A stretch of 48,829 nucleotides of DNA, taken from positions 1 through 48,829 of the forward strand of contig QZKV01000061.1 in NCBI GenBank assembly GCA_003599575.1, read 5' to 3'. Within the stretch, counting starts at the first letter, position 1. Every line of letters starts with the position of its first letter. Below the pieces are notes generated by a model. It was not told the DNA's origin and made no database searches. It saw only the letters and a list, made by a program, of their open reading frames with translations. This DNA is from Desulfobacteraceae bacterium. Its GTDB lineage: Bacteria; Desulfobacterota; Desulfobacteria; Desulfobacterales; Desulfosarcinaceae. Position numbers and translations under genes: made by a program. Positions 12,597 to 46,597 of the stretch are shown here, in pieces.

Positions 12597-13094
12597 TCAA
12601 TCCAACTGGTCGATGACGGCCCTGGATATCTGGTCGAAAGTCAAAATCTTTGTTCCGCCATGATCATTTTTGAATTCTTCGGCCGCTGCCTGAGTTTTAA
12701 ATGGGATCGGTTCCTTGCCCATAGGCCCGAAAACATCGCTGCCGATCACATAAAAAGCCGCCCTGGCATTGATGATCTGCATGTCATAGTACTCGGTTAC
12801 CCGCATGACAGCAATATCAGCCGCGGTCTTGCCCGGGTTGTATTTAGCCACATTGAAATAATACTTGAAAAGATCCTTGGCCCCGTCGAAAAAGAAGGTC
12901 TTGCCGTCCGCAAAGCTGATCTGTCCTACCCAGTCTGGATACTTGTAAACAAACATTCCGCAAACCGGGCACTTATCTTTTTTCCCCGGTGAGGCTGGTT
13001 TTGGATCCGCCGCCGCAGCCAACGCCATCGCCATGAAGAACAGCGCGATCGTCGGGATGAGGAATTTTTGCATCGTGCGACCAATCCAATTCAT
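12597..13094 (-). CDS. nosL: NosL-family periplasmic copper-binding protein
   Basis: 165 residues. It has a signal peptide (hydrophobic core about residues 12-28, then AAAADPKP) and the diagnostic motif CPVCGM at 42-47. The family fold follows, with YKYPDWVGQISFADGKTFFFDG and a C-terminal YYD-containing segment. NosL binds Cu(I) through Cys and Met residues and delivers copper to the nitrous oxide reductase CuZ site; homologues without a nos cluster are common. No nosZ is present here, so delivery to the multicopper oxidases downstream of the sigma-54 promoter, or to CusB, is a reasonable inference. Its ATG overlaps the TGA of the lipoprotein gene (ATGA), indicating coupling. The lack of a lipobox makes it a soluble periplasmic or signal-anchored version. 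Confidence 0.88.
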   Translation of the reverse strand: MNWIGRTMQKFLIPTIALFFMAMALAAAADPKPASPGKKDKCPVCGMFVYKYPDWVGQISFADGKTFFFDGAKDLFKYYFNVAKYNPGKTAADIAVMRVTEYYDMQIINARAAFYVIGSDVFGPMGKEPIPFKTQAAAEEFKNDHGGTKILTFDQISRAVIDQLD

Positions 13095-13558
13095 TCTACG
13101 GTAAGATTTTCCATCCGCAAGTCGCCGAGCACCACGGTTACTGCGCTGCCCCGTTTTACGATGCCGCCGCTTGAAAACATGACCGCGTAAACGCGCCCTG
13201 CTACCGGTTTGATGCCGGTGCCGCGCAGTTGGCCTACCTTCGTGAGCGGCACGGGCAGTTTCGCGCTCGTGGCCTGATCGATGAGGTAGGCTTCATCTCC
13301 CCGGTGCATTACGTTTTGCGCTTTTTCGGGATCGGTTACGCGATAGCGGAAATCGACCAGATGGCCCACTGCGGTCAGGCGTATCCCTTCCACATGGATG
13401 CCCCAACTGGCCTCTGGTTCGCCGGCCTGCATCCGATCATCCTGGGTGGCGACACCTGTGGATGACGCGCAACTCATGATTAGAATGGCAAAAAAAAGGC
13501 TCAACAAAATAGCCCATGTGGGTGAGGGGACTTTTAAAATGCTCTGTCTGTTGTGCAT
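13091..13558 (-). CDS. Predicted lipoprotein, copper-cluster associated, unknown function
   Basis: 155 residues. The start at 13558 is supported by GGAGG six bases upstream; a longer frame to 13639 has no such site. The signal peptide ends in a lipobox-like ILIMSC, so the mature protein begins with Cys (about residue 31) and would be lipid-anchored. The mature part, about 125 residues, is beta-rich (EGIRLTAVGHLVDFRYRV, GRVYAVMFSSGGIVKRGSAVTVVLGD) and has no extra cysteines. It is translationally coupled to nosL, which suggests a joint periplasmic role. I recognise no named family. Confidence 0.8.
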   Translation of the reverse strand: MHNRQSILKVPSPTWAILLSLFFAILIMSCASSTGVATQDDRMQAGEPEASWGIHVEGIRLTAVGHLVDFRYRVTDPEKAQNVMHRGDEAYLIDQATSAKLPVPLTKVGQLRGTGIKPVAGRVYAVMFSSGGIVKRGSAVTVVLGDLRMENLTVE

Positions 13559-13672
13559 CGCAACCTCCGCAATTTTTTTCTCTGGTCGATGAGATCGGTC
13601 ACTCCCATCGGCGTCACAGATGGTTAAAAAGCATACCACGTCAAATGATTCGAATAAAGCCGCGATCCCTGT

Positions 13673-14323
13673 TCAAGGTGAAGTCGAAGGCCCATTTTTA
13701 TCCCTGTTCATTTCAGCCAGGATCTGCTGGTATTCTTCCCTGCTGATTTTGCCGGACGCGAGCATCTGGTCAATGAACGATTTGATCTCCTGATCCAGTT
13801 GTTCGATATCTGCGGGGGGCGCTTTCGATGTTTGCACGGCTTGATTATCGTTTGCATAGTTGAAAGACGGTTCGCCGGTCATGGAAGACTGTCGCAGCGG
13901 CCGCTCGATCCGTGCGGGGACTCTCGTAAATCGAACAATGGCTTCCCCCTGGTAGATGGTCAGCTCGCTGACCGCGGCGACACCGCCATTCGCGGAATCG
14001 GCACCGCCCACAATCAAGGTGTAATTATACCTGTTGTTGCGGATGATCTTACGGATGAGCTCTTCGGAGGTGATGTTTTCGAAACGAAGGCTGATGTTGC
14101 CCGGCAGCACGCCACTGACCGTGCAACCAAAATCCCTACCCTGTAGCAGATCCCGCAGAACTCCGCTGACAGGCACATCCTTCAACTCCCCGCTCAGCCG
14201 GCCGTTGTTCCATTTCACTCCCGGCTCGGTGAGATATTTTGGCCGGCTCTGGCTCAGAGCGGGCGGCGGCTGGAAGCTAAGCAGAAAAAGAATAGCCGGA
14301 TATAGTAAGCAGCGCACCCACAT
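13673..14323 (-). CDS. Exported protein with STN (secretin/TonB N-terminal) domain
   Basis: 216 residues. The ATG at 14323 has GAGGAA upstream; the frame stays open to 14494 but without a signal peptide at that end. A signal peptide (about 1-24, ending PPALSQS) precedes an STN-like module at about 35-105 (VKWNNGRLSGELKDVPVSGVL, then LRFENITSEELIRKII). This module normally sits at the N-terminus of secretins and TonB-dependent receptors, but no barrel follows here. The C-terminal 80 residues are polar and end in a helical segment (EQLDQEIKSFIDQMLASGK). It lies 44 bases downstream of the subtilase gene. It may be a periplasmic partner of a secretin or other outer-membrane channel encoded elsewhere. 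Confidence 0.75.
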   Translation of the reverse strand: MWVRCLLYPAILFLLSFQPPPALSQSRPKYLTEPGVKWNNGRLSGELKDVPVSGVLRDLLQGRDFGCTVSGVLPGNISLRFENITSEELIRKIIRNNRYNYTLIVGGADSANGGVAAVSELTIYQGEAIVRFTRVPARIERPLRQSSMTGEPSFNYANDNQAVQTSKAPPADIEQLDQEIKSFIDQMLASGKISREEYQQILAEMNRDKNGPSTSP

Positions 14324-14367
14324 GGCATTCCTCGCTGGCAACAATTTGATTGACCTGCTGTTCTGCA

Positions 14368-16326
14368 TCATTGGCAAACAAGGCAATTGCTGCGGCCGTA
14401 GTCCTTTCGCAATAATACCAGATCGGTCAAGTTGACTATCAAGTCGCCGTTGATGTCTCCGATACACTGTTCCTGCGGGGGAAGTTGACGACAATCCTCT
14501 CCGTAATTTGACCGCAACAGGACTAAATCGCTTAAATTAATGGTACCATCATCGTTTAAATCCGCCGGACATGTGTTTTGGCATGCAGTCGTTGTTGAGC
14601 TTTCAGCGCCCTCGATGCCATTGACAACAACAATGCCTGGATCGCTTGCTGCATTGACAAGCATTACCCAGCGGTTTGAAGCATTATCCCAGTTCATCGG
14701 ACCGAAGCCTTCCAGATTCAAAGCCGCCGCCTCCGCCAGAGCGCTGGTGGCGTGAACTTTCAATACATTGGTGTCGACGCGATAAACGGCGCTGCCGATG
14801 ACGATGGACAGATCATAACCGTTGCAGTCCTGATCGACGCCATCGCCTTTGATTTCCGTCGAGCTGGGATGAATGCCGGCATCGGCGTCATCGCAATCCT
14901 GCGCTGTCCCGCAGACCGCTTCGAGGTAGTAGCCGTCGCCGTCACCGTCGGTGCACCCGGCCTGCAGTCGATATGCCGCCAGCACGTCGATCATTCCGTG
15001 GCCGTAGTCGTTGTCCGGCCCGGTCGCACCCAGATCGACGGCCGATTGCTTCAGGGCGGTTTCCAGTTCTGATACGCTCGTGCCTGGAAGCGCTTCCAGC
15101 AGCAGGGCCAAGGCGCCGCTGACATGCGGGGCGGCGAAAGAGGTCCCGGTAACGACCGTATATGCGTTAGGCAATGTGCCGTTGAGGCTGAGGCCGGCGG
15201 TCCTGACACTTAACCCCGGGGCCACCGCTTCCGGGTATGCATCATCAGCCGCATCGCAAGCGCCCGGACCTCTGCTGCTGAGGCTGACGATATCCTGGGT
15301 GGATGAAACCATACCTACCGCGAAGCTTTCCGGATTGTTGGACGGGCTGATACTGGTGGCCGGCCCCGGACCTTCGTTGCCGGCCGAAAAGACGACGGCG
15401 ATGCCGGCGGCCCGCAAAAGTTGAAGGTCGGTTTGGAATTCCAGCATGCATTCGTTGACCAGCCCGTCATACCCCCACGAGTTGTTCACGATATCGGGCG
15501 CATCGTCGGTAGCGGGATTCTGATCCGGGTCGAGCAGCCACTGGAAACCGGCGTGGATGACGCTCGTTGAGGCATCCCCGGCATCGTTGAAAATCTTCAC
15601 CGCGATCCATTGCGCCCCCGGCGCAATGCCGATGGCCGTCCCGGTGGCGTCACCGCCCAGCATGACCCCCATCGTGCCGGTTCCGTGTCCGCTCTTGTCA
15701 TACGGTACGGCCGGGTGCTGCCCATTGGGGTCGAACCAGCTGTTGGCCCCGCCGCGCCAGCGGCCGGCCAGGTCATTGTGCTGGAAATCTACCCCGCTGT
15801 CCATGCTGGCTACGACGATGCCGGATCCGTTGATTCCCATCTGCCACAAGGCAGGCGCACGGACGGCGTCGATATTCCACTCGACCGGCGCCGCCCCGGC
15901 CGCCATGACCTCGGGCAGATGGATGACCTCATCCAGTCGCACGCTGGCGACGCCGGGAAAAGAACGCAACAGCCGTTCGACCGCGGATGCGGGTACGTGC
16001 GCCGCCATGCCGTTGATTATCCATAGCTCGCGCACCTTGCGGGCCGAGTTGTTTTGTAAAAAATTTTTCAGCGGAGGCAGTTTCAGGGCCGCTTTGCTGC
16101 GCAAGGCCGAAACGAGCTTGCGCCGCCGAACGGACCGCAAGCGGTCGCGGTATGTACCGGCATCGACCCGATCGGCCAGGGTGATGATCACCGGGATCTC
16201 GGCATCGGGTGCGGCAGCGTTCAAGCGCGACTGCAGCCCTGGGGATAAGACCTCCGCGCCGGCGATTAGGACCGGTGATGGCGCCATTAAGAAAATCAGA
16301 AGAACGGTGCAGAAAAGCTTGCGCAT
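14368..16326 (-). CDS. Subtilisin-like (S8) serine protease with MopE-like motif and C-terminal cysteine-framed dockerin
   Basis: 652 residues. A signal peptide (1-24) is followed by an I9-like propeptide (about 43-135). The catalytic domain (about 150-455) has Asp176 (SMDSGVD), His214 (SGHGTGT), oxyanion Asn317 (SAGNEGP) and Ser396 (GTSFAAPH), so it should be active. Residues about 455-505 carry a DGDGDGY / DCDDADAGIHP / DGVDQDCNGYD motif of the type found in copper- or calcium-binding MopE-like proteins. The C-terminus (586-652) is a duplicated dockerin type I module with loops DLNDDGTINLSD and DINGDLIVNLTD, framed by four cysteines. The protein is probably secreted and either docks to a cohesin or matures its neighbours. 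SD GAGG lies about 10 bases before the ATG. Confidence 0.92.
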   Translation of the reverse strand: MRKLFCTVLLIFLMAPSPVLIAGAEVLSPGLQSRLNAAAPDAEIPVIITLADRVDAGTYRDRLRSVRRRKLVSALRSKAALKLPPLKNFLQNNSARKVRELWIINGMAAHVPASAVERLLRSFPGVASVRLDEVIHLPEVMAAGAAPVEWNIDAVRAPALWQMGINGSGIVVASMDSGVDFQHNDLAGRWRGGANSWFDPNGQHPAVPYDKSGHGTGTMGVMLGGDATGTAIGIAPGAQWIAVKIFNDAGDASTSVIHAGFQWLLDPDQNPATDDAPDIVNNSWGYDGLVNECMLEFQTDLQLLRAAGIAVVFSAGNEGPGPATSISPSNNPESFAVGMVSSTQDIVSLSSRGPGACDAADDAYPEAVAPGLSVRTAGLSLNGTLPNAYTVVTGTSFAAPHVSGALALLLEALPGTSVSELETALKQSAVDLGATGPDNDYGHGMIDVLAAYRLQAGCTDGDGDGYYLEAVCGTAQDCDDADAGIHPSSTEIKGDGVDQDCNGYDLSIVIGSAVYRVDTNVLKVHATSALAEAAALNLEGFGPMNWDNASNRWVMLVNAASDPGIVVVNGIEGAESSTTTACQNTCPADLNDDGTINLSDLVLLRSNYGEDCRQLPPQEQCIGDINGDLIVNLTDLVLLRKDYGRSNCLVCQ

Positions 16327-16359
16327 GAGTATCGATCCTCAATGCAATTTCAGATCAAA

Positions 16360-16428
16360 GTCCGGTGAAAAGCAGATCAACACCGGACGAAAGACCTGCA
16401 TCGGCATGGTTATGGCGATGCAGGTCTT
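16360..16428 (-). other. Two perfect hairpins upstream of the protease gene
   Basis: Between the VPLPA protein gene and the protease gene there are two inverted repeats. The first has 13-base arms AAGACCTGCATCG (16391-16403) and its complement (16416-16428). The second has 8-base arms GTCCGGTG (16360-16367) and CACCGGAC (16381-16388). Neither is followed by a strong T-tract on the transcribed strand. They may stabilise or attenuate the message at this junction of the operon. Confidence 0.6.
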
Positions 16429-16468
16429 CACCCCTAGCTGATTCTACTTCAGCTTTATAGCAAACGAC

Positions 16469-17077
16469 TTAAAAACCGATTCTTCTGCGCAGCCCCAACA
16501 GGCCGAGCAGTCCGGAGCCAAGCAGCAGCAAGGCCGGCGGAACCGGCACGGCATTCAAGGTCACAGTGGCATAAATATCGGCCGTGCCGTCCGGTCCCTG
16601 CCACAGCCAGTTGAAGTGGTTCACATCGCTCAGGTCGACCGAAAAGTCGATACCTGAACTCGTGACGATACGCACCGGATCCATCCATTCAAGATTCCAT
16701 CCCTGGAAGAAATTCCACAGGGCGGAGAAGCCCACGGACGAACCGCCGATGCTTTGGACCAGATCCGGGCTGTCGAAGTCGACGAACGCCGTGACCCCGG
16801 CAGGTTGAAGATCGTCACGGTTGATCCATGACTCGGTGGTTCCGATGGTGGCGAAATAAAAAGAACCGGAGGTCTGCCCGACGTCCAGATCGAAGAAAAT
16901 GTCGTCCAAATCGGGATTCATCTGGACAACATCCAGCCGGAGGGCAGCGTTGGTCGCCGAAGTATCGATCGAGGAGCCCGCGCCCATGTCGAAGACAAAG
17001 GCCAGGGCTTTCCCGTTGACCGCTACGCCTATGACGACCCATCCAAGCAGGATGAGCACCTTCAACGCTATTTTCAT
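16469..17077 (-). CDS. VPLPA-CTERM sorting-domain protein, unknown function
   Basis: 202 residues from the ATG at 17077, which has GAGGTG eight bases upstream. The signal peptide is at about 1-24. The mature part is acidic and beta-rich (DIFFDLDVGQTSGSFYFATIG, GIDFSVDLSDVNHFNW), without cysteines. The last 28 residues are a sorting signal: NAVPVPPALLLLGSG, a short hydrophobic helix, then a basic end RRRIGF. This matches the VPLPA-CTERM variant of PEP-CTERM that is processed by exosortase XrtD, which is encoded in this window at 44985. The product should be sorted to, and probably glycosylated at, the cell surface. It follows the cohesin-like gene by 52 bases. The ligand or partner is unknown. 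Confidence 0.88.
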   Translation of the reverse strand: MKIALKVLILLGWVVIGVAVNGKALAFVFDMGAGSSIDTSATNAALRLDVVQMNPDLDDIFFDLDVGQTSGSFYFATIGTTESWINRDDLQPAGVTAFVDFDSPDLVQSIGGSSVGFSALWNFFQGWNLEWMDPVRIVTSSGIDFSVDLSDVNHFNWLWQGPDGTADIYATVTLNAVPVPPALLLLGSGLLGLLGLRRRIGF

Positions 17078-17129
17078 AGGTTTGCACCTCATCTGTTTTA
17101 CTCTTGGTGAATGCTTCGAGATACGGCCA

Positions 17130-17687
17130 TTAGCTTCTTTTCTTTCGCCCCAGGCCCACAAGGCTTATCAGACCGGAGCCCAGCAGCAAGAGCGAGCCGG
17201 GAATCGGCACTGCGTTTACTGAAACCGAGGTTCCCACCTCATTGAAAGACAGGCTTGCGAAAACTTCATCAAAATTGATGTCAAACCATGGTGAAATTGC
17301 ACTCAACGCAAAATCAGCCGTACCGATGTCTTGCGCCAAAAAAGACAGTGTGCCGATATCGAGATCCTGATTTATAGCAAAGCCATTAGTGAAGTCGGGT
17401 GTTGAGAAATCAATTGTGGAGTCGGGATAAGCAGCCGCCGTGTCTATGTCGGCTCCCGGAGTAAGGCCCTGAAATGTCACCAGCGCAGGGTTGAAGGTGA
17501 AGCTCAGGGTTCCACCGAACAAACCGGCCGTGTCGGTATTGAGAATCAGGTCAAGATCAAATTGGTTGCCCACCAAAACAGAAGATCCTTGTACTGGAAC
17601 CAGGCTGAGCGTAATTGCAGCCTGAACGCCATTGACCATGATGACTGAGAACAAAGCAATCGAGACTAAAAAAAGCATCTTTTTCAT
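17130..17687 (-). CDS. Cohesin-like domain protein with VPLPA-CTERM anchor
   Basis: 185 residues. Signal peptide 1-23 (VQA), then one domain of about 130 residues that fits the cohesin fold pattern. The features are LVGNQFDLDLILNTD, a glycine step (LFGGTLSFTFNP), LVTFQGLTPGAD, a later GTLSFLAQDIGTADFAL and the closing strand FNEVGTSVSVN. These correspond to the VGxxF / GxxFxLxYDP / xxPG / LxFxA positions of cohesins and of the cohesin-like domains in PEP-CTERM proteins. The C-terminus is a VPLPA-type signal: NAVPIPGSLLLLGSG, helix, GRKKRS. Cohesins bind dockerins, and three dockerin-bearing proteins are encoded in the same gene run, one directly upstream. It may therefore be their surface receptor. 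SD AAGGAG precedes the ATG. Binding itself is not shown by sequence. Confidence 0.82.
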   Translation of the reverse strand: MKKMLFLVSIALFSVIMVNGVQAAITLSLVPVQGSSVLVGNQFDLDLILNTDTAGLFGGTLSFTFNPALVTFQGLTPGADIDTAAAYPDSTIDFSTPDFTNGFAINQDLDIGTLSFLAQDIGTADFALSAISPWFDINFDEVFASLSFNEVGTSVSVNAVPIPGSLLLLGSGLISLVGLGRKKRS

Positions 17688-17737
17688 ATTAAGCTCCTTT
17701 TGATTGATTTATGACCTAAAACAGAAGTGCTTCAGAA

Positions 17738-19024
17738 CTATTCTATCGGACAATCCGCTCTTCCATAGTTACGCTCCAGAAGAGCTCTATCCACCAGATT
17801 AACTCTATTGTCTTTGTTGATATCTCCAAGACAAGGAGTGCCCGGATCACAGACCAGCCCTTGATTGCGCTGAACGGTTACGCGATCCACCAGATTGACT
17901 CGCCCGTTGTGGTCCAGGTCGCCGGCGCAGGCCACGTCGTAGTAGGCCAGCATGCCTCCTGTAGTCGCCGCTCCGTTGTTGGTCAGGTTCAACATGGCAT
18001 CGTGGATGGAATACTTTCCGTCCACGGTGGGCTCTAGAACTGCATCGACGGTTTTGCCGGCCGGCAGCTGAAAACCATACTGCTGTTTGCGGTAGGGAAT
18101 GGAAACGCCCGTAGTAGTATTGCGATATGTGAACGGGTATCCATCTTCGGCCACGAGCTGCAGGTAGGTATTCAGAAACTGCGGCACATGGATGTCGTAG
18201 CCGGCATTGAGAGACCGTACCAGCACCTTTTCATAGGGTTCAACGAAAATCACAGGATTCAGCCCGCCTCCGTCTGACGCCGTCGGATCGTAGGCCTTGC
18301 CGTTGATCAGGTAGTATTTGGGATCGCGATGTACGCTGCTGGTGATGACGCCGCCCGTCCCATAGGTCCCGCCGGACACGGCGGCATGGATCGCGGGGTC
18401 GATTTCGCTGTAAACCAGGATGAGTTCCTTTGTGTAGGGTACGCCGGTATAGGCAACACCTCCGGCCGTGTCTTTCTTGATGGCCGCATACAGACCCATC
18501 TGAACCTGTTTGGCGGGATTGGTACCGCTCTGCAGCAGGTAGGTTCCGGCTTTGAAGTTGTTCCAGGTGTAGCTGCTCGTGGCGCCTGGGGCGGTTTCAT
18601 GGGCGAAAGAGCGCACCCGCGAGGTTAAATCATTTCTCGCTCCCATGGAGGAGACGGTGTTGCTCAGACCGGACGTCCAGACCGGGCCGCCGGCCGGCGC
18701 CAGGATCTGTCCCAGGATCGAAAGGGACACCGGTTCGGGCAGGTTGTTGGTCAGGTTGATCGTCACCGAGGTTTCGCCCGGCGGGACCACCAGCGGGTCG
18801 CCGGGCACCTTCACGATCCCGTCGCCCGGGGTGATCACGCCGCCGACATCGGTGGCGTCGAGGGCGAATCCCCACATGTCGATAACGGCCGCATCCGGCA
18901 TGGTCAAGGTCGTTGGCCCGGCGGTCATGTTGAAGGTGACCGCCGCCGCGGAGCCCGCCCAAATGCCCAGGATCACCAGGCAAAGGAGGGCCCCCATAAA
19001 TGATTTGCTCTTTTTGTTGTCCAT
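17738..19024 (-). CDS. Ligand-less multicopper-oxidase-like protein with cysteine-framed dockerin (MCO-C)
   Basis: 428 residues. A signal peptide (about 1-28) is followed by cupredoxin-type repeats that align with the next two genes. At the site where a copper oxidase has YHCH or HSH, this protein reads GTYLLQSGT; where HPMHYHG would stand it reads IHVPQFLN. So almost all copper ligands are missing. Only a degenerate YSIHDAMLNLTNNG remains near the end of the cupredoxin part. Residues 366-428 are a duplicated dockerin with loops DLDHNGRVNLVD and DINKDNRVNLVD, framed by four Cys at fixed spacing. It is probably a structural subunit that carries the docking module for the two ligand-bearing paralogues upstream. 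SD AGGGGGAAA precedes the ATG, and the gene is 18 bases from MCO-B. Confidence 0.88.
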   Translation of the reverse strand: MDNKKSKSFMGALLCLVILGIWAGSAAAVTFNMTAGPTTLTMPDAAVIDMWGFALDATDVGGVITPGDGIVKVPGDPLVVPPGETSVTINLTNNLPEPVSLSILGQILAPAGGPVWTSGLSNTVSSMGARNDLTSRVRSFAHETAPGATSSYTWNNFKAGTYLLQSGTNPAKQVQMGLYAAIKKDTAGGVAYTGVPYTKELILVYSEIDPAIHAAVSGGTYGTGGVITSSVHRDPKYYLINGKAYDPTASDGGGLNPVIFVEPYEKVLVRSLNAGYDIHVPQFLNTYLQLVAEDGYPFTYRNTTTGVSIPYRKQQYGFQLPAGKTVDAVLEPTVDGKYSIHDAMLNLTNNGAATTGGMLAYYDVACAGDLDHNGRVNLVDRVTVQRNQGLVCDPGTPCLGDINKDNRVNLVDRALLERNYGRADCPIE

Positions 19025-19042
19025 AATGGTTTCCCCCTTTCG

Positions 19043-20392
19043 CTATCGTATGGGTACCGTGGGATGCTCGAGAACCACGAAGGTCAGCGAGCCGCCCGGG
19101 AAGACGTCGTTGCTGGTCAACTCCTTTTCGCTGTGGGAGTGCCAGGGGAACAGGAACCCGCCGCCCGTATTGAGGCCGGGGTGCCCGGGGGGCAGATCGC
19201 CCATGCCGCCAAGGAACGGGCTGCCGCTCCAGAACTGCCCGAAGGCCAGGTCGTCGCGCTCGGCCAGAATCACCGGAAAAGGCTGACCGTGGTCGGGGTA
19301 GTTCACGCCGTCCGGCGTGTATTCATATCCTACGATCGGCTGGTCTGCGGGCAGAGTGCTGTCAGGCGCATGGCCGTACGGATCCCAGCCCAGGTCCGCG
19401 CCGGTCCATTCCCAGATCATGTCCGCTGTCTGCCCGGGCGTGAACTGGATGGTCGAGAGCTTGTAGCCCAGGTCCGGCCCTGCCGTTCCACCGCTGGTGA
19501 GCAGGCGGCCGTCTTCGGCAATCACCAGAGGATCCTGACCGTGATAGTGCATGGGGTGCAGTTGCAGCCCGGCTCCGATCACGCGGATGAGCACTTTCTC
19601 GAAGGGATGGGTGCGCGGCACGCAGTTGTACGGCTGGGTGGGGAACCAGGGCACGCCCGGCGGCTGCAGCAAGTCCGGAAAGGCGCGGCCGTTGACGAAC
19701 CAGTGGACCGGAAACCAGTCGGTCATGTCGACCTGGGCGATTTGACCGGCTTCCACCATGTCGTGAATTTTGATATCGATTTCGGTTAACAGGTACAGGT
19801 ACTCATGGTGATAGGCCGTGCCGGCGTGGTTATAGGCGTAGTGGATCTGGTCGGTGTAGGGCCGGCCGTCGGCATGTGAAGCCATGCTGGACCGTACGAT
19901 AAGCGCGCCCACCAGGCCCATTTCGACCTGCAGGTCGGGCCGGGTGCCGCTTCGGTAAAGATAGGTTCCCGGTTGCGCGGCGGTAAAGCGGTAAGTCACC
20001 AGACCTCCGTTGGATGCCGCCTCGCGCGTCAGGGCGCCGGCGACGCCGCCGCTGGCCGTGACCGCGTGGCCGGGAAAGACGATGGATACGTTCTGGCCGT
20101 GGGCCACGGGCAGTTGATTGGTCAAGTTGATGGTGACATTGGCGCCCTGGTTGACGATCAGGGTGGGCCCGGGATACTGCATGCGTCCCCCGCCGTTGGC
20201 GTAACCCCACATGACGATGCTGTCGCCGTCCGGGGAGCTGATGTAGTCCTGCCTGGCCACGAGGTTAAAGACAGGATTTTGGCTGGTATCTGAGATCCCG
20301 TCCACGACCGCCTGCGCCGGCGCGCCCCACAGCATAAGCATGGCCAGGATCCCAACAATGAGACCGCCGCTTCGTTTCAAACCTGAGTTCAT
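19043..20392 (-). CDS. Multicopper-oxidase family protein with partial ligand set (MCO-B)
   Basis: 449 residues. The start at 20392 has a strong GAGGAGG seven bases upstream, which overlaps an alternative ATG at 20407, so 20392 is preferred. Signal peptide about 1-28 (PAQA). The first cupredoxin domain has lost its ligands (GTYLYRSGT where YHCH would be). Later motifs keep HPMHYHG (His279, His282, His284) and FPWHSHSEKE (His418, His420): two His-x-His pairs but no type 1 copper cysteine. Alone it cannot form a complete laccase site. The upstream paralogue MCO-A supplies the complementary motifs. It lies in a tight run: 17 bases after MCO-A and 18 bases before MCO-C. There is no dockerin on this subunit. 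Confidence 0.9.
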   Translation of the reverse strand: MNSGLKRSGGLIVGILAMLMLWGAPAQAVVDGISDTSQNPVFNLVARQDYISSPDGDSIVMWGYANGGGRMQYPGPTLIVNQGANVTINLTNQLPVAHGQNVSIVFPGHAVTASGGVAGALTREAASNGGLVTYRFTAAQPGTYLYRSGTRPDLQVEMGLVGALIVRSSMASHADGRPYTDQIHYAYNHAGTAYHHEYLYLLTEIDIKIHDMVEAGQIAQVDMTDWFPVHWFVNGRAFPDLLQPPGVPWFPTQPYNCVPRTHPFEKVLIRVIGAGLQLHPMHYHGQDPLVIAEDGRLLTSGGTAGPDLGYKLSTIQFTPGQTADMIWEWTGADLGWDPYGHAPDSTLPADQPIVGYEYTPDGVNYPDHGQPFPVILAERDDLAFGQFWSGSPFLGGMGDLPPGHPGLNTGGGFLFPWHSHSEKELTSNDVFPGGSLTFVVLEHPTVPIR

Positions 20393-20409
20393 GGTATGCC
20401 TCCTCATTG

Positions 20410-21651
20410 TTAGTTGATCACGATTTCGGTCATCAGGCCGCCGCGTTCTTCAGCCTTGTTGCTGAGAAACTGCAGGTTGGTCGTGTACAGAAAATAGGTG
20501 CCGCTAAGAACGCCGGTGGTGTCGATGATGACATCGAAGGCCTGCCCGCCGCCGACATTCAGCACGCTGACTTCGTACGAGGTGTCTTTGGGGTTCGGGC
20601 CCGGGCCACGCAACAGTTCGGCGCCGCGGCCGACCACGCGCATGGGAACGCCCAGGGTGGTGGCGATTGAAATGATGTCCGTCGTGGAGACGTTGCTGAT
20701 CCGCAGGGAAATCTTGTCCCCGCTGTTCGCTTGGATCAAGGCGTTCATGCGCTGGGCGACATAGTCTGTACCGTAGTAATCTCCTGCTCTATTGACCATA
20801 TCGCCGTCGGCGGTGCTCAGGTCATTGTCGCTGGTATTGACGGTGTCCGGATAGCCGCGGCCGTTGATCATGAAGTAGTCATCTTTCATCTCCGCGAACG
20901 GCAGGGGCTGGACGGCCAGATGCTTGTTGTGGAAATTGGAGTCGAACGAGGTCATCTGAATGGGGTAAGTCACATCGTAGTAAGTGGAGCCGTCGCCGTC
21001 ATTGTAAACATACTGGAAGCCGGCTTGATGAATGAAGCCCTTCAGGCTGGTCCCGGCCGGCAGGTCGTTCTGGCGCGGGGTCACCCACAGATTGCCGATC
21101 ATGCCCATCTGCATGTGCTCGGTGGCTTCCACGTGGCAATGGTAGAAAAAAGTGCCTTCCTTGGCGGCCAAGTAATAGAAGGGCATCGTCGCCAGCATGT
21201 TGGAGGCCGGAGACACCTCGGGCACGCCGTCGAAGACCGAGGCGGCATTGATGAAACCGTGCCAATGGACCGAGTGGGCGTCGAACAGGTCCGGCCGCAT
21301 AACCATGCCCACATTGGTCAGGCTTAGATAAAGCTCCTGGTCCTGCTTCAATTGGATGGTGGGGGCCGGAAACAGGGCCCGGCCGGTGAAGCTGGGGACG
21401 AGGTCGGTCACCGCCATGGCGGGGGGCACCTCGGCAAAGCTGAAGATGTACTGCAGTTCACCGTCGGCCATGCGCGTAAATCCATCGCCCGACGCCAAGT
21501 GGGTGCAAATGACGTTGGGGTCCTCCGATATGCCGTCGCCGTTTGTATCCGTCGGGCACTGGACCAGGACGCCGGCCCCGGACGATGCAGCACCCAGGAT
21601 GACGAGCAGCAGCGATAAGGCGTATCTCAAGTATCGCTTCCGTGCTTTCAT
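20410..21651 (-). CDS. Multicopper-oxidase family protein carrying the type 1 copper site (MCO-A)
   Basis: 413 residues. Signal peptide about 1-27. A calcium-loop-like DTNGDGISED lies at 35-44. The first cupredoxin domain has a full set of T1-side motifs: HSVHWHG (His126, His129, His131) and YHCHVEATEHMQMGM (His171, Cys172, His173, His179, Met184). The second domain lacks histidine pairs where they would be expected (DIISIATTLGVPMRVVG; GTYFLYTTNLQF). So this polypeptide provides the type 1 copper centre and half of a trinuclear cluster; the other half could come from MCO-B. Substrate is unknown; extracellular metal or phenol oxidation and oxygen or nitrogen-oxide reduction are options for the family. 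SD GGAGG precedes the ATG. No dockerin is present. Confidence 0.92.
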   Translation of the reverse strand: MKARKRYLRYALSLLLVILGAASSGAGVLVQCPTDTNGDGISEDPNVICTHLASGDGFTRMADGELQYIFSFAEVPPAMAVTDLVPSFTGRALFPAPTIQLKQDQELYLSLTNVGMVMRPDLFDAHSVHWHGFINAASVFDGVPEVSPASNMLATMPFYYLAAKEGTFFYHCHVEATEHMQMGMIGNLWVTPRQNDLPAGTSLKGFIHQAGFQYVYNDGDGSTYYDVTYPIQMTSFDSNFHNKHLAVQPLPFAEMKDDYFMINGRGYPDTVNTSDNDLSTADGDMVNRAGDYYGTDYVAQRMNALIQANSGDKISLRISNVSTTDIISIATTLGVPMRVVGRGAELLRGPGPNPKDTSYEVSVLNVGGGQAFDVIIDTTGVLSGTYFLYTTNLQFLSNKAEERGGLMTEIVIN

Positions 21652-21687
21652 GTTTTTTCCTCCATTTATGGAAGTTATAAATTTTTT

Positions 21688-21723
21688 CTTTCCCCCGCCG
21701 ATGCTTGCTTCGGCGGGGGAAAG
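21688..21723 (-). other. Strong hairpin between the giant exoprotein and MCO-A genes
   Basis: Perfect 14-base arms (CTTTCCCCCGCCGA at 21688-21701; complement at 21710-21723) with an 8-base loop, 14 bases after the stop of the 1798-residue gene. On the transcribed strand it is followed by an A-rich rather than T-rich run, so it is not a classical intrinsic terminator. It could protect the 3' end of the upstream message or partly stop transcription, so setting different amounts of scaffold and oxidase. Confidence 0.7.
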
Positions 21724-21737
21724 ATTTCGATTGCGGC

Positions 21738-24700
21738 TTAGGGGCAGGTGGTTCCGTAGACAGCTCTGAGTGCGGCCAAATCACTCAGATTGACAACACC
21801 GTCACCATTTATATCTCCTGTGCACGGCTGACCTGCCTGGCATTGTTTTCCATAGTTGGCCCTTAACAGGACCATATCTGCCAAATTGATAAAACCGTCG
21901 CCGTTCAGGTCTGCCGGACAGATAGCTGCAGGAGCCGCTGCCGCGACATACTCGTCGGCACCGATATCAACCAAGGCGGGCCGCGTATCGTTGTCGATGT
22001 CCATATCGAGCAGGTCGTCCAACGCTGCCGGCGTAAAGGCTTCGTTCGTACCCGCATCGATCGCCGGTGAACCCCCGGTGCCGCCAGTGAGGTGGTAATC
22101 ACCGAAGAGCTGGCCGTTTGACGGATTCCACAGAGTCAGCGGGCTGAAGCGCAGGTCGATGAAGTTGCCGCCCTCGTCCACGGCCGCGGCCACACTGAAA
22201 TTCACCGTGGCTTCGGGCATTCCGAAGATGTAGCCCAGGCCGCCGTTGAAGTACTCGTACACGAAATGCGGATCGCCGCTGATGTTGCCATCCATGCTGG
22301 TGGTCAGCAGGCAGAAGCGCGGGGCAAGCGCCCCGGCCCCGGGAGGCAGGACCGCCAGATCATTGTAGGGAACAGGACTGGCCAGGAGCGTTCCTGTGTT
22401 GCCGGCCAGATCGAGCTCAAAGTAGAACGACCGGTTGTGCCAGATGATGTTGTTGACCAGCTGCGGGTTGCTGAAGCCCCTGTAGAATGGACCGGTAGCA
22501 CCGCCGGACACCAGGCCGTTGATCAGGGCGGCCAGTCCGGCACTGTGCGAGCGGCTCACCACACCGGCGGGCTGCGGTGTCGATTGGCCGGGGGTGAAGC
22601 CGGCCTGTGCTTCGAAGGCCAGGCCCGCCGTGGCGCTGCTGTCGTTGTTGGCGATGGTGTTGTGGATGATACTGGGCCGGGCCGCGTCCTGCATTGAAAT
22701 GCCGCCGCCGGCCAGACCCGCGACATTATTGACAATGATGTTGTTGACGATATCCACAGTGTGCCAGTTGAGCGGGTTGGCTTCGTACTGCTCGATATCC
22801 TGCCCGTTGATATTGACCAGGCGGATGCCGCCGCCGTCACCGGCGCCAGCCAGGTTGCCCTGGATCAGGTTGGAGTCGATCACCACCGAACCCGAGCCTT
22901 CGGTCAACCCCACGCCTCCCGGAGGAGATTCGCCGCTGATGGAAATGCCGCCGCCGGAGACGCTGGTGCCCTGGTTGAAGCTCTGGTTAAAGATGATGGT
23001 GTTGTCGACAATGCGGCCATTGTCGCTAAGGCCCAGGTGGCCGATACCGCCGCCGGAGCCGATGGAAAAGTTGCCGCAGATATAGTTATCGGTGATGGCA
23101 TAGTTGTCGGTGCCGTTGTAGAGCGAAATGCCGCCCCCGGCGCCGACCCCCGTCGTGCCGTTCTGAGTCACCTGGTTGTGGTGGATCAGGATGTTGTCAT
23201 TGACGTTGTCGACCAAATCGACATTGTTGATAAAGGGGTGCCCGGAGCGGATGCCGCCGCCGAACACGCCGGAGTTGCCGCTGACCCGGTTGTTGCTGAT
23301 TTCAACATGCTGGGCATAGCCGTTGAGCACCACGCCGCCGCCCAGGGTGGAGCCTGTGACGGTGAAGCCGTCGATGCGAGGCCGCGGGTTGGGCGTGAAC
23401 TTGTTCGGTCCGCTGCCGTCCGGGTTGCTGGCCAGGACCACGATTCCGGCGCCTTCCTCGGTGAACAGGGCTTGAGGCTCAAACAGGCCGAAGCCGGGAT
23501 CCTGGAAGGGCAGCAGATCTATGACGCCGGTGTTAATCAGGCTGTCGATCTTCTGGCGCCAGGCAAGGAGTTTCTCACCCGGTGCGTTAAGGGCGCTGAT
23601 TATGGTGGATGGGGCGCCTGAACCCTGCAGCTGCACATCCTTCCACAGGATCAGCATTTCCGGGTAGTATCCGGGCGCCACCAGGATGAGGCTCCCGGGC
23701 CGCGCCAGGTCGATGGCATCTTGGATCGGTGTCGCGTTGGGGTTGCTGCTGGGACTGACTTCGACCACTCCGCCTCCAGTGGGACCGATGACCACCGATA
23801 CGCCCATGATCGTAGACAGGCCCGTGTCGCCTCGTGTCACTGAAAGCTGGTAGGTGCCGGGCGGTGTGCCGGCCGGGACGGTACCGGTAATCACCCCATT
23901 ATTCCAGATAACGTTCTGCAAGGCGATGTTGCCGATTCTGACCGAGCTGCCGGACTGGAAGGTGCCGAAGCCGAAGTCGCGCGGAATCGTCTTGCGGGGG
24001 TCGCCGCCGAGGCTGAAAGCCGGGTTGGGCACTTCGGTCATACCCAGCGACGTAATTTGCAGGGTGCGATTCTGAGTGGTCATATCGATGTAGGGGCCGT
24101 TGCCGCCCGAGCGTTTGGCCGAGAAGATCACCGGCGTGCCGTCGCCGAACTCGCAGTCCAGCGGGAACTGGTTCTGGCCGGCAAAGGCCGCCACCGGAAC
24201 GACCGGGGTGTCAAGATAGGTGATTGCCCCCGGCATGTACTGGAAGGTGTAGCAGAACTGGCTGTATTGGGGATTGAATTGCGGATCGATGATCATCTGG
24301 TCTCGTGTCGGCGAGCCCGGCCGGGTATCGAGGATCGGACCAGGGTCGTTCATGCAGCCCACCAGCATGGCCGGGGAGAATCCGCTGGCATTGGGCACGT
24401 TGGCCGTGTAGGTGGAGGGTACCAGCAGGTTGTAATTGCCGTATTGATCGGAATAAACGCGCGTGATCTCCTTGCCGGTCCAGTCGCGGAAAGCCACGGG
24501 CATGAACGGCGGAGCGTATTTTTCGCCGAAATTGGGGTTGTTGGGATCGAATTCGTTGGCCAGATCGTCCAGAATGAAGCCCTTGATGCGGGCCGACGGC
24601 GGCACTGCGGTGAAGAGGAAGAAATCCGCGGCTGTGTTGGCGGTCTGGACCACCTGGACGTGCTTGCGGTTGCAATCGCTGAGCACCACCGGATTGCTGG

Positions 24701-27134
24701 CCGGATTGAAACCCGGCTTGTAGTCCTTGTCGCCCGGATCGTAATAGGGATGTCTTACCCCCGGGAAGAGGGACAAATATTCCGGAACATTGTAGGAATC
24801 CCCGACGCAGACCGGCGGCAGCAGCAGCTCGCTGGGCGTGAACTCATCGCCGAAATCCACATTCTTGTCCTGGGACTTGACCACATCGTAAATCCGATGC
24901 CGGCCGACTTCCACGATGTAGAATCCCGAATCAATGCCGGAGAAGGCATACCCGCCGTCGAACACCGCCGGGCGGACCTGGTTGAAGTTGCGCAGCCCGT
25001 CGTAGCATTTGCCGCTGTAATAGAAGGGATCATTTGGATCGCCCGGGCAGCCGGTGGGCACTTCGTCGTCCCAGCTGTCGGAGTAGGTGATCTGGATGGC
25101 GTCGCCCATGTCGAATATGGTATCGCCGTTTTGGTCAAAATCCTCGGGGCCGCGGGTCCCGGGACAGGGGGTGTTGCCCTGGCAGTACCAGTCGAAAGGA
25201 TAGTTGTCGACATCCGCCAGCTGCACGCCTGCGGGTGTGTTGATGTCATCGATTTGCCCGTCGCCCTCGGCATCCCGGTACAGGTTCAGCTGGATGCGCG
25301 GGATGCCAGGCTGCCACAGTTCACCGAAATTTAATTGCGGATCGTTTTCGGCGCGCGTGGTGTCGTAGAAAACGATGCCGGAGATGCCGCCGTTGGGGAA
25401 AGGATCGTTGACGGGATCGTAAACGCGTTTGCCCCAGTCGATGACGTTGGTCTGCCCGAGAAAGGTCTGGATGCCCAGCGAGAGCAAATCCTCACCGGGG
25501 ATGGAGGTTTCCGTCCAGAAAAGTCCCCCGTCCGCCTGCACCTGGGGATTGAGACGGTTAAAGGAGGGCATTTCCCAGCCCATATCCGCTGGGACGGGTC
25601 CGCCGGCGTCCACCACAACGGTTGCCCCGGTGGCTGTGAAGCGGGCAAAATCGACTTCCGCCACCAGCCAGCTGAAAAAGGGGAATACCTTGTTGAAGGC
25701 GTATGCACCCGTGCTGTCGGTGGTCGTATTGTCATAAACGGTCCCATCGCGGAAGCGCAGTTGGACCAACTGTTCCGGCAGACCGAGCTCACCGTCGTCA
25801 CGGAACCCGTTGCTGTTGCTATCATAAAACACCGATCCTTGCAGATGCCCGAACCAGTCAAAATAGCCCACATCGCCCAGCGCAAGGGTCGCCGGCGCCG
25901 GATTGGGCACCACCACCTGTTTCAGGCCGATGACGCGCAGCAGGTTTTTATCCCACAGCACGAGCTCGTAATTTCCGGGCGGGACATTGGGGATGCTGAA
26001 AGTGCTGTCATTCGGGTTGGCCGGAGCGGCCCAGACACCGCGGCCGATGCCCACCGACAGATCGTTCAAGCCGATCCAGGCTTCGGGAACGGGGTTCCCA
26101 TTGTACCATGTGTACACAGGCGGGCGCGACAGGTGATTGTTGACGGCCCGGCCCGTAATGGTGGTTGCACCGTTGAGCACCGAAGTATCGTTCATTCGCT
26201 TGACAAAACCTGCGAAGACATGCTGACCCGGAGGTCCGAATTCCGTAAAAAAAGGCGGTTCGTTGGCTTTGACCCAGGCATCGATGGTTGTCGTGCCTTC
26301 GATGGTGGTGGTTTGCTGCCAGCCCTGTCCGGCCGGCGGCGTTATCACGATGCCGTATTTGCCCGGGGCCAGGTTTTTGATGATGGCAAAACCGTCCGAA
26401 TCGGTGATGACGGTGCCGCTGCCCAGAACACCCACATCCGGGGAGCCGTCGCCGTCCACATCGCAGAGGCTGTTTCCGCTGCCCGGATTCTGGCCCGCGG
26501 CATCACAGGTGCGCAGATAGGTCGTCAGGAACGGATTGCCGAAAGCATCCGTGAACTGCTGCCCGCCGACCACGCCGTAGCGGCCGCCGGCATCGAACAC
26601 CTTCACGTCGAATCCCGCCAGTCCCTGTTCTTCGGGCAGGTCGGGCGCGTTGTTGATCGGGAAGTTGTCATGAAATACGAAGATGGAAATCTGCGCCGTA
26701 GGGACCGGGTGCGGGTTGACCGTGACGGTCACATTGGTTTGCCCGGCAGCCACCGGTGCGCCTCCCATCGTATATCCTCCGGGATAGGGCAGGATGGATA
26801 CGAAGTAACGCTTGGTCGAGGGAACACTGATTTCGACCGGATTCCTGGTCCCTGAGCCCTTGGCGACAACCGGCATGTAGCTTTTATGAAAATTAAGCCC
26901 CAGGACATCGGTGTCCGGGGCCGGGTTGGCCGGGTCCACCGGGTAGGTTACATCTTCTTCCACCAGGTAGTCAAAACCGGCAAGGATGGGGTTGCCGTTC
27001 TGATCGACCACATTGAGGAAGAAGGCCGACGCAGTGCCCTGCAACATCAACAAAAGCACCGGAATCATCAGGGCAAACAATAGCTTGCCGGCACCAGTTT
27101 TCCTCTTTTTCATCACCTGGATAACTTTTTGCAT
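21738..27134 (-). CDS. Giant exported SdrD-B-like/parallel beta-helix protein with C-terminal cysteine-framed dockerin
   Basis: 1798 residues. After a signal peptide (hydrophobic core about 18-38, TASA) come several prealbumin/CnaB-like and SdrD B-like modules. Examples are PPGNYELVLWDKNLL at about 390, GSVFYDSNSNGFRDDGELG at about 430 and GGISGIVFYDTTRAEND at about 583, with Ca-loop-like DVDGDGSPDVG near 225. An IPT/TIG-like segment lies at about 1030-1115. From about 1120 to 1640 there is a pectate-lyase-like right-handed beta-helix (IQDAIDLARPGSLILVAPGYYP, then repeated NNxIxxN motifs). The final 60 residues are a dockerin with loops DLNGDGFINLAD and DINGDGVVNLSD, framed by four Cys. No catalytic residues of a polysaccharide lyase were identified. 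It may be an adhesive or structural scaffold. SD AGGAGG precedes the ATG. It opens the exoprotein series downstream of PilZ. Confidence 0.9.
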   Translation of the reverse strand: MQKVIQVMKKRKTGAGKLLFALMIPVLLLMLQGTASAFFLNVVDQNGNPILAGFDYLVEEDVTYPVDPANPAPDTDVLGLNFHKSYMPVVAKGSGTRNPVEISVPSTKRYFVSILPYPGGYTMGGAPVAAGQTNVTVTVNPHPVPTAQISIFVFHDNFPINNAPDLPEEQGLAGFDVKVFDAGGRYGVVGGQQFTDAFGNPFLTTYLRTCDAAGQNPGSGNSLCDVDGDGSPDVGVLGSGTVITDSDGFAIIKNLAPGKYGIVITPPAGQGWQQTTTIEGTTTIDAWVKANEPPFFTEFGPPGQHVFAGFVKRMNDTSVLNGATTITGRAVNNHLSRPPVYTWYNGNPVPEAWIGLNDLSVGIGRGVWAAPANPNDSTFSIPNVPPGNYELVLWDKNLLRVIGLKQVVVPNPAPATLALGDVGYFDWFGHLQGSVFYDSNSNGFRDDGELGLPEQLVQLRFRDGTVYDNTTTDSTGAYAFNKVFPFFSWLVAEVDFARFTATGATVVVDAGGPVPADMGWEMPSFNRLNPQVQADGGLFWTETSIPGEDLLSLGIQTFLGQTNVIDWGKRVYDPVNDPFPNGGISGIVFYDTTRAENDPQLNFGELWQPGIPRIQLNLYRDAEGDGQIDDINTPAGVQLADVDNYPFDWYCQGNTPCPGTRGPEDFDQNGDTIFDMGDAIQITYSDSWDDEVPTGCPGDPNDPFYYSGKCYDGLRNFNQVRPAVFDGGYAFSGIDSGFYIVEVGRHRIYDVVKSQDKNVDFGDEFTPSELLLPPVCVGDSYNVPEYLSLFPGVRHPYYDPGDKDYKPGFNPASNPVVLSDCNRKHVQVVQTANTAADFFLFTAVPPSARIKGFILDDLANEFDPNNPNFGEKYAPPFMPVAFRDWTGKEITRVYSDQYGNYNLLVPSTYTANVPNASGFSPAMLVGCMNDPGPILDTRPGSPTRDQMIIDPQFNPQYSQFCYTFQYMPGAITYLDTPVVPVAAFAGQNQFPLDCEFGDGTPVIFSAKRSGGNGPYIDMTTQNRTLQITSLGMTEVPNPAFSLGGDPRKTIPRDFGFGTFQSGSSVRIGNIALQNVIWNNGVITGTVPAGTPPGTYQLSVTRGDTGLSTIMGVSVVIGPTGGGVVEVSPSSNPNATPIQDAIDLARPGSLILVAPGYYPEMLILWKDVQLQGSGAPSTIISALNAPGEKLLAWRQKIDSLINTGVIDLLPFQDPGFGLFEPQALFTEEGAGIVVLASNPDGSGPNKFTPNPRPRIDGFTVTGSTLGGGVVLNGYAQHVEISNNRVSGNSGVFGGGIRSGHPFINNVDLVDNVNDNILIHHNQVTQNGTTGVGAGGGISLYNGTDNYAITDNYICGNFSIGSGGGIGHLGLSDNGRIVDNTIIFNQSFNQGTSVSGGGISISGESPPGGVGLTEGSGSVVIDSNLIQGNLAGAGDGGGIRLVNINGQDIEQYEANPLNWHTVDIVNNIIVNNVAGLAGGGISMQDAARPSIIHNTIANNDSSATAGLAFEAQAGFTPGQSTPQPAGVVSRSHSAGLAALINGLVSGGATGPFYRGFSNPQLVNNIIWHNRSFYFELDLAGNTGTLLASPVPYNDLAVLPPGAGALAPRFCLLTTSMDGNISGDPHFVYEYFNGGLGYIFGMPEATVNFSVAAAVDEGGNFIDLRFSPLTLWNPSNGQLFGDYHLTGGTGGSPAIDAGTNEAFTPAALDDLLDMDIDNDTRPALVDIGADEYVAAAAPAAICPADLNGDGFINLADMVLLRANYGKQCQAGQPCTGDINGDGVVNLSDLAALRAVYGTTCP

Positions 27135-34910: not shown

Positions 34911-35023
34911 GTAATGATAATTCATTATTCATAGCCGTATGGGCATCGGTTATTTATACACTGGACGCGATTATAATTTTCATAATCCAGCGATTTACTA
35001 ACTTGTCATTTGCAAGTGTCTAA
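34907..35023 (+). CDS. 38-residue membrane mini-protein, coupled on both sides
   Basis: ATG at 34907 overlaps the upstream stop (ATGA), and its TAA overlaps the next ATG (TAATG). The product starts MSNDNSLFIAVWASV and consists mostly of one hydrophobic helix (about residues 7-28, IAVWASVIYTLDAIIIFII) followed by QRFTNLSF. I recognise no family. The two exact overlaps and the amphipathic ends make a real gene more likely than chance. It may be a small partner of the Wzy-type polymerase. Confidence 0.6.
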   Translation: MSNDNSLFIAVWASVIYTLDAIIIFIIQRFTNLSFASV

Positions 35024-36507: not shown

Positions 36508-36525
36508 GCACTCAAAGCCATCGGG

Positions 36526-38385: not shown

Positions 38386-38392
38386 TGTAAAC

Positions 38393-41735: not shown

Positions 41736-41744
41736 TGGGATCTG

Positions 41745-42401: not shown

Positions 42402-42406
42402 AATAC

Positions 42407-43066: not shown

Positions 43067-43069
43067 ACC

Positions 43070-43735: not shown

Positions 43736-43791
43736 AACAAATCCGCGGGTACACCCATTCCATCTTTTCAGCAGGTTTATACGAGGCGAAT

Positions 43792-44982
<1,191 letters not shown>

Positions 44983-44984
44983 AA

Positions 44985-46553: not shown

Positions 46554-46597
46554 GATGGGGGGAAAGCCCGTAGGTTGAAAAGCTTTAAGGTGCAGCC

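Follow-up and report, generated by a model that had tools for sequence, protein, structure and literature searches.

A dockerin-tagged cupredoxin and protease operon with a predicted exosortase-sorted socket in a Desulfobacteraceae bacterium

Introduction

In type I cellulosome pairs such as those of R. flavefaciens ScaC and C. thermocellum CipA, secreted enzymes carry a type I dockerin whose partner is a cohesin. Outside cellulosomes, the function of both modules is given as unknown in the relevant passages of PMC5244752. Here we analyse a 48,829-nucleotide stretch of a Desulfobacteraceae bacterium (the window), which corresponds to contig C35 in a draft genome of 6.45 Mb labelled G000. In a minus-strand operon of this window, three proteins with predicted secretion, an S8 protease, the cupredoxin-type subunit MCO-C (MCO, multicopper oxidase) and a 1798-residue protein ('big'), end in dockerins, and a neighbouring 185-residue protein is a candidate socket for them. 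The likeness to the type I pairs lies in dockerins on secreted enzymes and in this predicted cohesin-like partner. Unlike cellulosomes, the window system has a single cohesin-like domain, an exosortase-type tail instead of an S-layer homology (SLH) or sortase anchor, a cargo of cupredoxin-type proteins and a protease, and four framed cysteines in each dockerin.

Cohesin and dockerin genes also occur in methane-oxidising archaea and their sulfate-reducing partners, which are not thought to degrade cellulose, and the passages concerned describe adhesins, ABC substrate-binding proteins, S-layer proteins and scaffoldin-like proteins (PMC9012536, PMC10553843, PMC5244752). The likeness to the window lies in cohesin and dockerin genes of such organisms, some of which reduce sulfate; unlike the window, a copper oxidase operon or PEP-CTERM socket is not mentioned in those passages, and the words multicopper and PEP-CTERM are absent from PMC10553843, as is multicopper from PMC9012536. 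In Sideroxydans lithotrophicus ES-1, three tandem extracellular MCO genes are among those considered for extracellular electron transfer (PMC5566968), and Geobacter dockerin, cupredoxin and laccase genes are expressed in Fe-reducing soil (PMC6199725). The window shares with ES-1 the three tandem extracellular MCO genes, compared by description only, and with Geobacter the occurrence of dockerin together with cupredoxin; unlike the window, the passages on both organisms mention no socket, tail exchange or cysteine frame. Among NCBIfam families, the GC-type dockerin (NF041540) is a named dockerin variant, and the 'choice-of-anchor' families describe one surface family with differing anchors. Both resemble the present case, in which, unlike in those families, the module is common to two or three genes of one operon. 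In the open-licence literature we found no paper joining dockerin with PEP-CTERM, with or without multicopper oxidase, nor choice-of-anchor with PEP-CTERM.

On balance, we lean slightly towards the reading that the dockerins of the S8 protease, MCO-C and the 1798-residue protein plug into the neighbouring exosortase-sorted 185-residue socket, and that they form an exchangeable operon address. The four-cysteine dockerins would dock into the predicted cohesin-like domain of this protein, whose VPxPx-CTERM tail would likely be processed by the exosortase XrtD of the same window. Lacking copper motifs itself, MCO-C would bring the copper-bearing subunits, MCO-A and MCO-B, to the socket, and the plug would be exchangeable, with several related operons using other common C-terminal modules. 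This would be an exosortase-sorted form of cohesin-dockerin display that is apparently new and seems to serve redox proteins. Its new elements would be a single exosortase-sorted socket candidate, four-cysteine plugs, cupredoxin and protease cargo and an operon-wide exchanged docking tag, with binding that we infer. The operon is thus a small testable set of one socket candidate, three plugs and one sorting enzyme, and we propose as a purpose of non-cellulosomal docking that extracellular redox proteins and a protease are held together at the surface.

Results

Four-cysteine dockerins on three operon proteins

The minus-strand gene order is big, MCO-A, MCO-B, MCO-C, the 185-residue protein, a second PEP-CTERM protein and the S8 protease. 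The features central to the argument are as follows.

21738-27134, minus strand: 1798-residue protein 'big', first gene of the operon, with SdrD_B, CarboxypepD_reg and TIG domains (Pfam) and a C-terminal dockerin; orthologues occur in the operons of other genomes
21741-21920, minus strand: four-cysteine dockerin of the 1798-residue protein, C-x25-C-x5-C-x25-C
20410-21651, minus strand: MCO-A, cupredoxin-type subunit with HWHG and HCH...H...M copper motifs, without dockerin
19043-20407, minus strand: MCO-B, cupredoxin-type subunit with HPMHYHG and WHSH motifs, without dockerin
17738-19024, minus strand: MCO-C, cupredoxin-type subunit without HxH copper motif, with a C-terminal dockerin
17741-17929, minus strand: four-cysteine dockerin of MCO-C, C-x25-C-x5-C-x26-C
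17130-17687, minus strand: 185-residue predicted socket with a signal-like N-terminus, a predicted cohesin-like domain and a VPxPx-CTERM tail
17235-17624, minus strand: predicted cohesin-like beta-sandwich, spanning roughly residues 22-151 as covered by the VIA matches of the model
17133-17213, minus strand: exosortase-type sorting tail VPIPGSLLLLGSGLISLVGLGRKKRS, from the sequence
14368-16326, minus strand: S8 subtilase with a MopE-type metal-binding motif and a C-terminal dockerin
14377-14571, minus strand: four-cysteine dockerin of the S8 protease, C-x25-C-x8-C-x26-C
44763-46553, plus strand: VPLPA-CTERM-specific exosortase XrtD, predicted socket-sorting enzyme (PF09721; TIGR04152 at 447 bits, cut-off 400); the true start is probably further in

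All three dockerins contain two tandem Ca-loop/helix repeats inside a frame of four cysteines, as seen in the sequence and in the profile match to solved dockerins, the closest of which is 2y3n (E 1.1e-8). The frames described in an earlier note on this DNA were confirmed residue by residue: C586-x25-C612-x8-C621-x26-C648 in the S8 protease, C366-x25-C392-x5-C398-x26-C425 in MCO-C and C1739-x25-C1765-x5-C1771-x25-C1797 in the 1798-residue protein. With the Pfam Dockerin_1 hidden Markov model (PF00404, cut-off 22.9 bits), the 1798-residue protein was above the cut-off at 26.3 bits and the S8 protease below it at 18.2, while MCO-C scored 21.0, or 22.9 in the whole-genome search, where it was counted as over. 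The GC-type model NF041540 (cut-off 29) was not reached by the 1798-residue protein (17.8 bits) or by MCO-C of a relative, G678 (16.2 bits), and no match to it was listed for the S8 protease and MCO-C of the window.

The window dockerins are mutually 39-51% identical. Their joint profile, which recovers the three by construction, picked up a single other dockerin protein when run on the 6.45-Mb genome; it is encoded on contig C59, and its two halves match with E 9e-6 and 5e-4. The cysteine frame cannot be put down to chance, because it recurs in 19 of the best 120 of 1374 MCO-C homologues (one of the 19 being the window's own protein), with spacings of x25-28, x2-8 and x25-29; further dockerin proteins of the relatives G983 and G678 are examples of its presence beyond the operon. 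On sequence grounds, the four-cysteine frame is a recurring dockerin subtype, in line with the distinct form that had been proposed. The spacing of exactly 25 residues holds in the window proteins but not in the homologues, in which the first spacing is usually 25 but ranges over 25-28, and it largely reflects the length of one loop-helix repeat. The framed cysteines may form disulfides, and a four-cysteine dockerin could yield a robust tethering pair for engineering.

A common tail within operons of relatives

MCO-C was found in 17 of 395 genomes of the phylum, and MCO-B in 9 of 379 genomes of the window's order (the window's genome is counted in both) and in 15 of 257 genomes of the order of G678. 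In total, 39 genomes were chosen by an MCO-C or MCO-B match, and core genes were seen in 38 within the stretches read. Many of these relatives retain the gene order big, MCO-A, MCO-B, MCO-C, the protein corresponding to 13091-13639 and S8. By their cores, big, MCO-C and S8 come from separate families, yet within one operon their last 90 residues are often alike. Across the 31 operons with at least two usable tails, the mean cross-protein tail score was 60.9, versus 28.0 (standard deviation 2.1) after shuffling, and none of 5000 shuffles scored as high. Shuffling ignores relatedness, which is partly answered by a run with one operon per family (17 operons), where the mean score was 67.3 versus 28.8. 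When the three dockerin operons among these 17 were left out (14 operons), the score was 47.4 versus 27.2, again unmatched in 5000 shuffles. Dropped before counting were the C-terminally truncated tails of MCO-C in G646 and G481 and of S8 in G792, together with the 'big' open reading frame (ORF) of G070, which runs on into MCO-A.

The common tail modules, named by eye, include four-cysteine dockerins (G000, G678, G983), cysteine-less dockerins (G413), an FSHFYT repeat (G414), DUF4214-like tails (G676), immunoglobulin (Ig)/fibronectin type III-like tails (G606, G684) and a short Gly-rich CF tail (G535, G204). In 5 of the 38 operon-bearing genomes the operon encodes dockerins, and two or all three of the proteins big, MCO-C and S8 carry them. 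All three proteins carry one in G000, G983 and G413; the S8 tail of G678 is only partly dockerin-like; and G028 has a four-cysteine dockerin on big and a weak dockerin-like MCO-C tail (E 0.036), with S8 lying beyond the contig end. A weak internal dockerin match in MCO-C of G904 (E 0.038) was not counted as a tail. Within operons, dockerin identity is 39-44% in G413 and, between MCO-C and big, 58% in G678 and 64% in G983; orthologous dockerins are also alike, those of big in G678 and G983 being 60% identical. Because several operons without dockerin give these proteins other common C-terminal modules, the comparison suggests that the tail of big, MCO-C and S8 behaves as an exchangeable address label, with dockerin one of several. 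As a reading aid, a tail common to adjacent, otherwise unrelated genes would mark a likely common address.

Copper motifs and a likely tethering subunit

Motif conservation sets the three cupredoxin-type subunits apart. HxxHxHG and HCH..H..M are kept in 31 of 31 MCO-A orthologues, HxxHxHG in 28 of 28 MCO-B orthologues, and HxH is missing in 29 of 30 MCO-C orthologues. The window proteins agree with this pattern, MCO-B having WHSH in addition, and the best solved matches of MCO-A and MCO-B include the two-domain laccase 2zwn. We infer that the motifs of a single multicopper oxidase are divided between MCO-A and MCO-B. MCO-C lacks the copper motif and the copper-bearing MCO-A and MCO-B lack a dockerin, and therefore MCO-C is more likely the tethering subunit. 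The dockerin-bearing copper oxidase of the earlier note was thus not borne out, since MCO-C has no HxH motif and the motif-bearing subunits are undocked. Along 17738-21651 the copper motifs are split over MCO-A and MCO-B, with none in MCO-C, as if one oxidase spanned three genes.

An extracellular redox role of the operon is favoured by analogy with dockerin multihaem proteins in G983 and G678, the tandem MCOs of Sideroxydans and the Geobacter dockerin and cupredoxin genes. Two proteins of G983 and G678, L183:6069-8072, which passes PF00404, and L184:4555-6552, which matches the four-cysteine profile only, have 12 CxxCH motifs, an N-terminal four-cysteine dockerin and a MopE-type metal-binding motif. 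By their motifs they are dockerin-tagged multihaem cytochromes.

PEP-CTERM genes beside dockerin operons

Plug and candidate socket tend to occur together. A PEP-CTERM gene lies within 500 bp of a core gene, on the same strand, in 4 of the 5 operons with dockerins and in 3 of the other 33 (p = 0.002, Fisher test), with independence lowered in that G000 and G028 are of one family, as are G678 and G983. The fifth dockerin operon, that of G413, is followed downstream by a cohesin-like protein (PF00963 17.8 bits, below the cut-off; hhalign probability 94%), and G413 has two stronger Pfam cohesins elsewhere. This downstream protein of the cysteine-less dockerin operon (L106:16160-17443, 427 residues) combines a cohesin-like N-terminal domain with a C-terminal dockerin-like loop.

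The sockets of G678 and G983 are homologous (47-50% identical) and lie directly upstream of big. A paralogue in G983, 43% identical to the socket of G678, sits 64 bp upstream of a 783-residue protein with five CxxCH motifs and a four-cysteine dockerin. This socket family matched P0003 with a score of 35.8 over 112 columns, the best of 27 controls reaching 18.0. The controls of the profile comparisons were chosen by tail pattern from fetched loci; one protein is counted twice among them (L019, L021), and one ORF or more is doubtful. Within the genome of the window, the C59 cluster (L022, G000:C59, 7360-12836) encodes a 1360-residue di-haem peroxidase-type dockerin protein, a PEP-CTERM protein and then a paralogue (65%) of the second PEP-CTERM protein of the window.

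The socket candidate and its sorting tail

The 185-residue protein is predicted to be secreted, having a signal-like N-terminus and a tail VPIPGSLLLLGSGL..RKKRS. When its structure model was searched with Foldseek, the first 22 Protein Data Bank (PDB) rows were cohesin or cellulosome structures by title, so that the cohesin-like domain claimed earlier stands as a predicted fold from a model of middling confidence, its Pfam score being below threshold and its sequence link to cohesins weak. A predicted structure lacking the cohesin fold, which would have refuted the earlier note, was thus not obtained. The anchor claim divides similarly. The tail VPIPG...RKKRS fits the VPLPA class by eye, the window encodes the matching XrtD (one of two exosortases in the genome), and a tail profile from family A3 matches at 3e-11; yet the tail is below the cut-offs of TIGR03370 (17.5 versus 25.35 bits) and PF07589 (13.3 versus 20.7 bits).

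A genome-wide PF00963 search gave no match at E<=0.001. The picture of a cellulosome-type system was accordingly not upheld: there is one cohesin-like domain, no Pfam cohesin at that threshold, and a cargo of protease, MCO-C and 1798-residue protein; cellulases were not searched for in this comparison.

Discussion

A number of results weigh against docking into the 185-residue protein, and most concern its cohesin nature. Its PF00963 score is 15.1 bits, short of the cut-off of 24.1. Confidence in the structure model is middling (predicted local distance difference test, pLDDT, 63; predicted template modelling score, pTM, 0.53), and pilin, integrin and YcnI folds come within 1 Z of cohesins in VIA. 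The model was built from five alignment rows that included P0003 and the G678/G983 sockets, and its resemblance to cohesins therefore cannot be taken as independent of them. In profile comparison, the window domain alone scored 17.5 against cohesins, where 100 shuffles had a 95th percentile of 15.7 and a maximum of 18.1 and controls reached up to 20.4. Its tail-free form gave no match to P0003 (14.0, controls up to 17.5), nor did the domain match the G678/G983 socket family (16.9, controls up to 18.0). The database match of the 185-residue protein to P0003 is thus due largely to a common tail. The relatives bring further adverse points: the G678/G983 socket pair scored 20.5 against cohesins (hhalign), with a best control of 20.4, and fell to 16.5 once the third paralogue was added; the G983 operon socket alone gave no signal (12.8), nor did the PEP-CTERM neighbours in C59 and G028 (13.7 and 11.7); and the G678 socket model was too poor to search (pLDDT 35). 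In addition, 6 of 7 further dockerin loci from G983 and G678 had no PEP-CTERM neighbour in the stretch, and many operons have no common tail.

P0003 was rejected as a link of the window socket to cohesins, since the match vanishes once tails are removed; it supports the G678/G983 sockets only, and the remaining sequence link runs via P0002. Sequence evidence for the window socket as a cohesin is therefore weak, and firmer for G678/G983 and G413; its putative cohesin nature rests mainly on the middling model. A cohesin fold for the C59 and G028 PEP-CTERM proteins was set aside on their profile scores. The tied YcnI fold raised the idea of a copper carrier, which is unlikely in a 185-residue protein with no His and no Cys.

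The 185-residue protein might instead be an ordinary Ig-type PEP-CTERM matrix protein that stands in the operon by chance, the dockerins binding something different, for instance the exopolysaccharide matrix or a cohesin on some other protein or in a second species. The failed Pfam cut-off, the Ig-type folds tied in VIA and the missing tail-free match to P0003 would all fit such a protein, as would the family of the second PEP-CTERM protein (16469-17077), which elsewhere is mostly without dockerins. Passages on methane-oxidising consortia also propose cohesin/dockerin pairs for partner contact (PMC10553843). We nevertheless regard this explanation as rather unlikely: the genome-wide search found no stronger cohesin candidate, PEP-CTERM genes adjoin dockerin operons, the G983 socket-family copy adjoins a dockerin multihaem protein, and the 185-residue model has a cohesin-like fold. 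The dockerin pairs could also be partnerless stability or maturation tags that bind Ca or other metal, the four cysteines stabilising a free-standing C-terminal cap. EF-loops do bind Ca, the cysteine frame recurs in homologues, and the dockerin partner is a candidate only. This is improbable, however, given that dockerin-free operons often provide the same proteins with other common modules, which argues for location or assembly over local folding; the dockerins of one operon moreover resemble each other (39-51% in the window), although the same holds for some orthologues (60%).

We return to docking in the exosortase-sorted socket, which we still slightly prefer. An extended form of it, which we offer as a tentative possibility, is a surface 'redoxosome': one exosortase-anchored cohesin socket would bring together a giant protein, a protease and, held through the subunit that lacks copper, a split copper oxidase. 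Elsewhere, multihaem cytochromes and a di-haem peroxidase would bear plugs of this type, and the tag would be exchanged operon-wide as a unit. If this were true, a tail common to two or three genes would report which surface scaffold a lineage uses.

Other genes of the window

The remaining minus-strand genes are listed below.

16469-17077, minus strand: second PEP-CTERM protein, which probably starts at 17077, the ORF start of 17161 being too early, with a paralogue in the C59 cluster
13673-14494, minus strand: ORF downstream of the S8 protease
13091-13639, minus strand: conserved operon protein, in many relatives located between MCO-C and S8
12597-13094, minus strand: NosL-family protein, copper handling (PF05573, 116 bits)

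The second PEP-CTERM family has 37 database members at E<=0.001, query included, and is present in 17 of 389 genomes of the order at E<=1e-10, window's genome included; it carries a conserved GT[TN]E[ST]WIN motif. As a dockerin-specific partner the protein was rejected, with 0 of 19 stretches from other genomes (L023-L026 and L045-L059, two contigs being read twice) having a dockerin gene beside it. A few kb away from the family, a weak dockerin match occurs in L059 (E 0.003) and one EF-type loop in L026, and on two contigs, matched by equal length and source only, a member of the family seems to accompany a dockerin protein of the MCO-C type (P0048/P0010 and P0050/P0014).

Comparison of the 13091-13639 protein with Pfam and NCBIfam gave no match. 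After the S8 protease, the minus strand continues with ORF 13673-14494, the 13091 protein, NosL, an FtsX/ABC pair and the 9321 protein, past which, at the far end of the operon, lie genes that we take to be for RND-type efflux. The operon adjoins a plus-strand gene cluster (33684-48667) of polysaccharide type, which includes XrtD.
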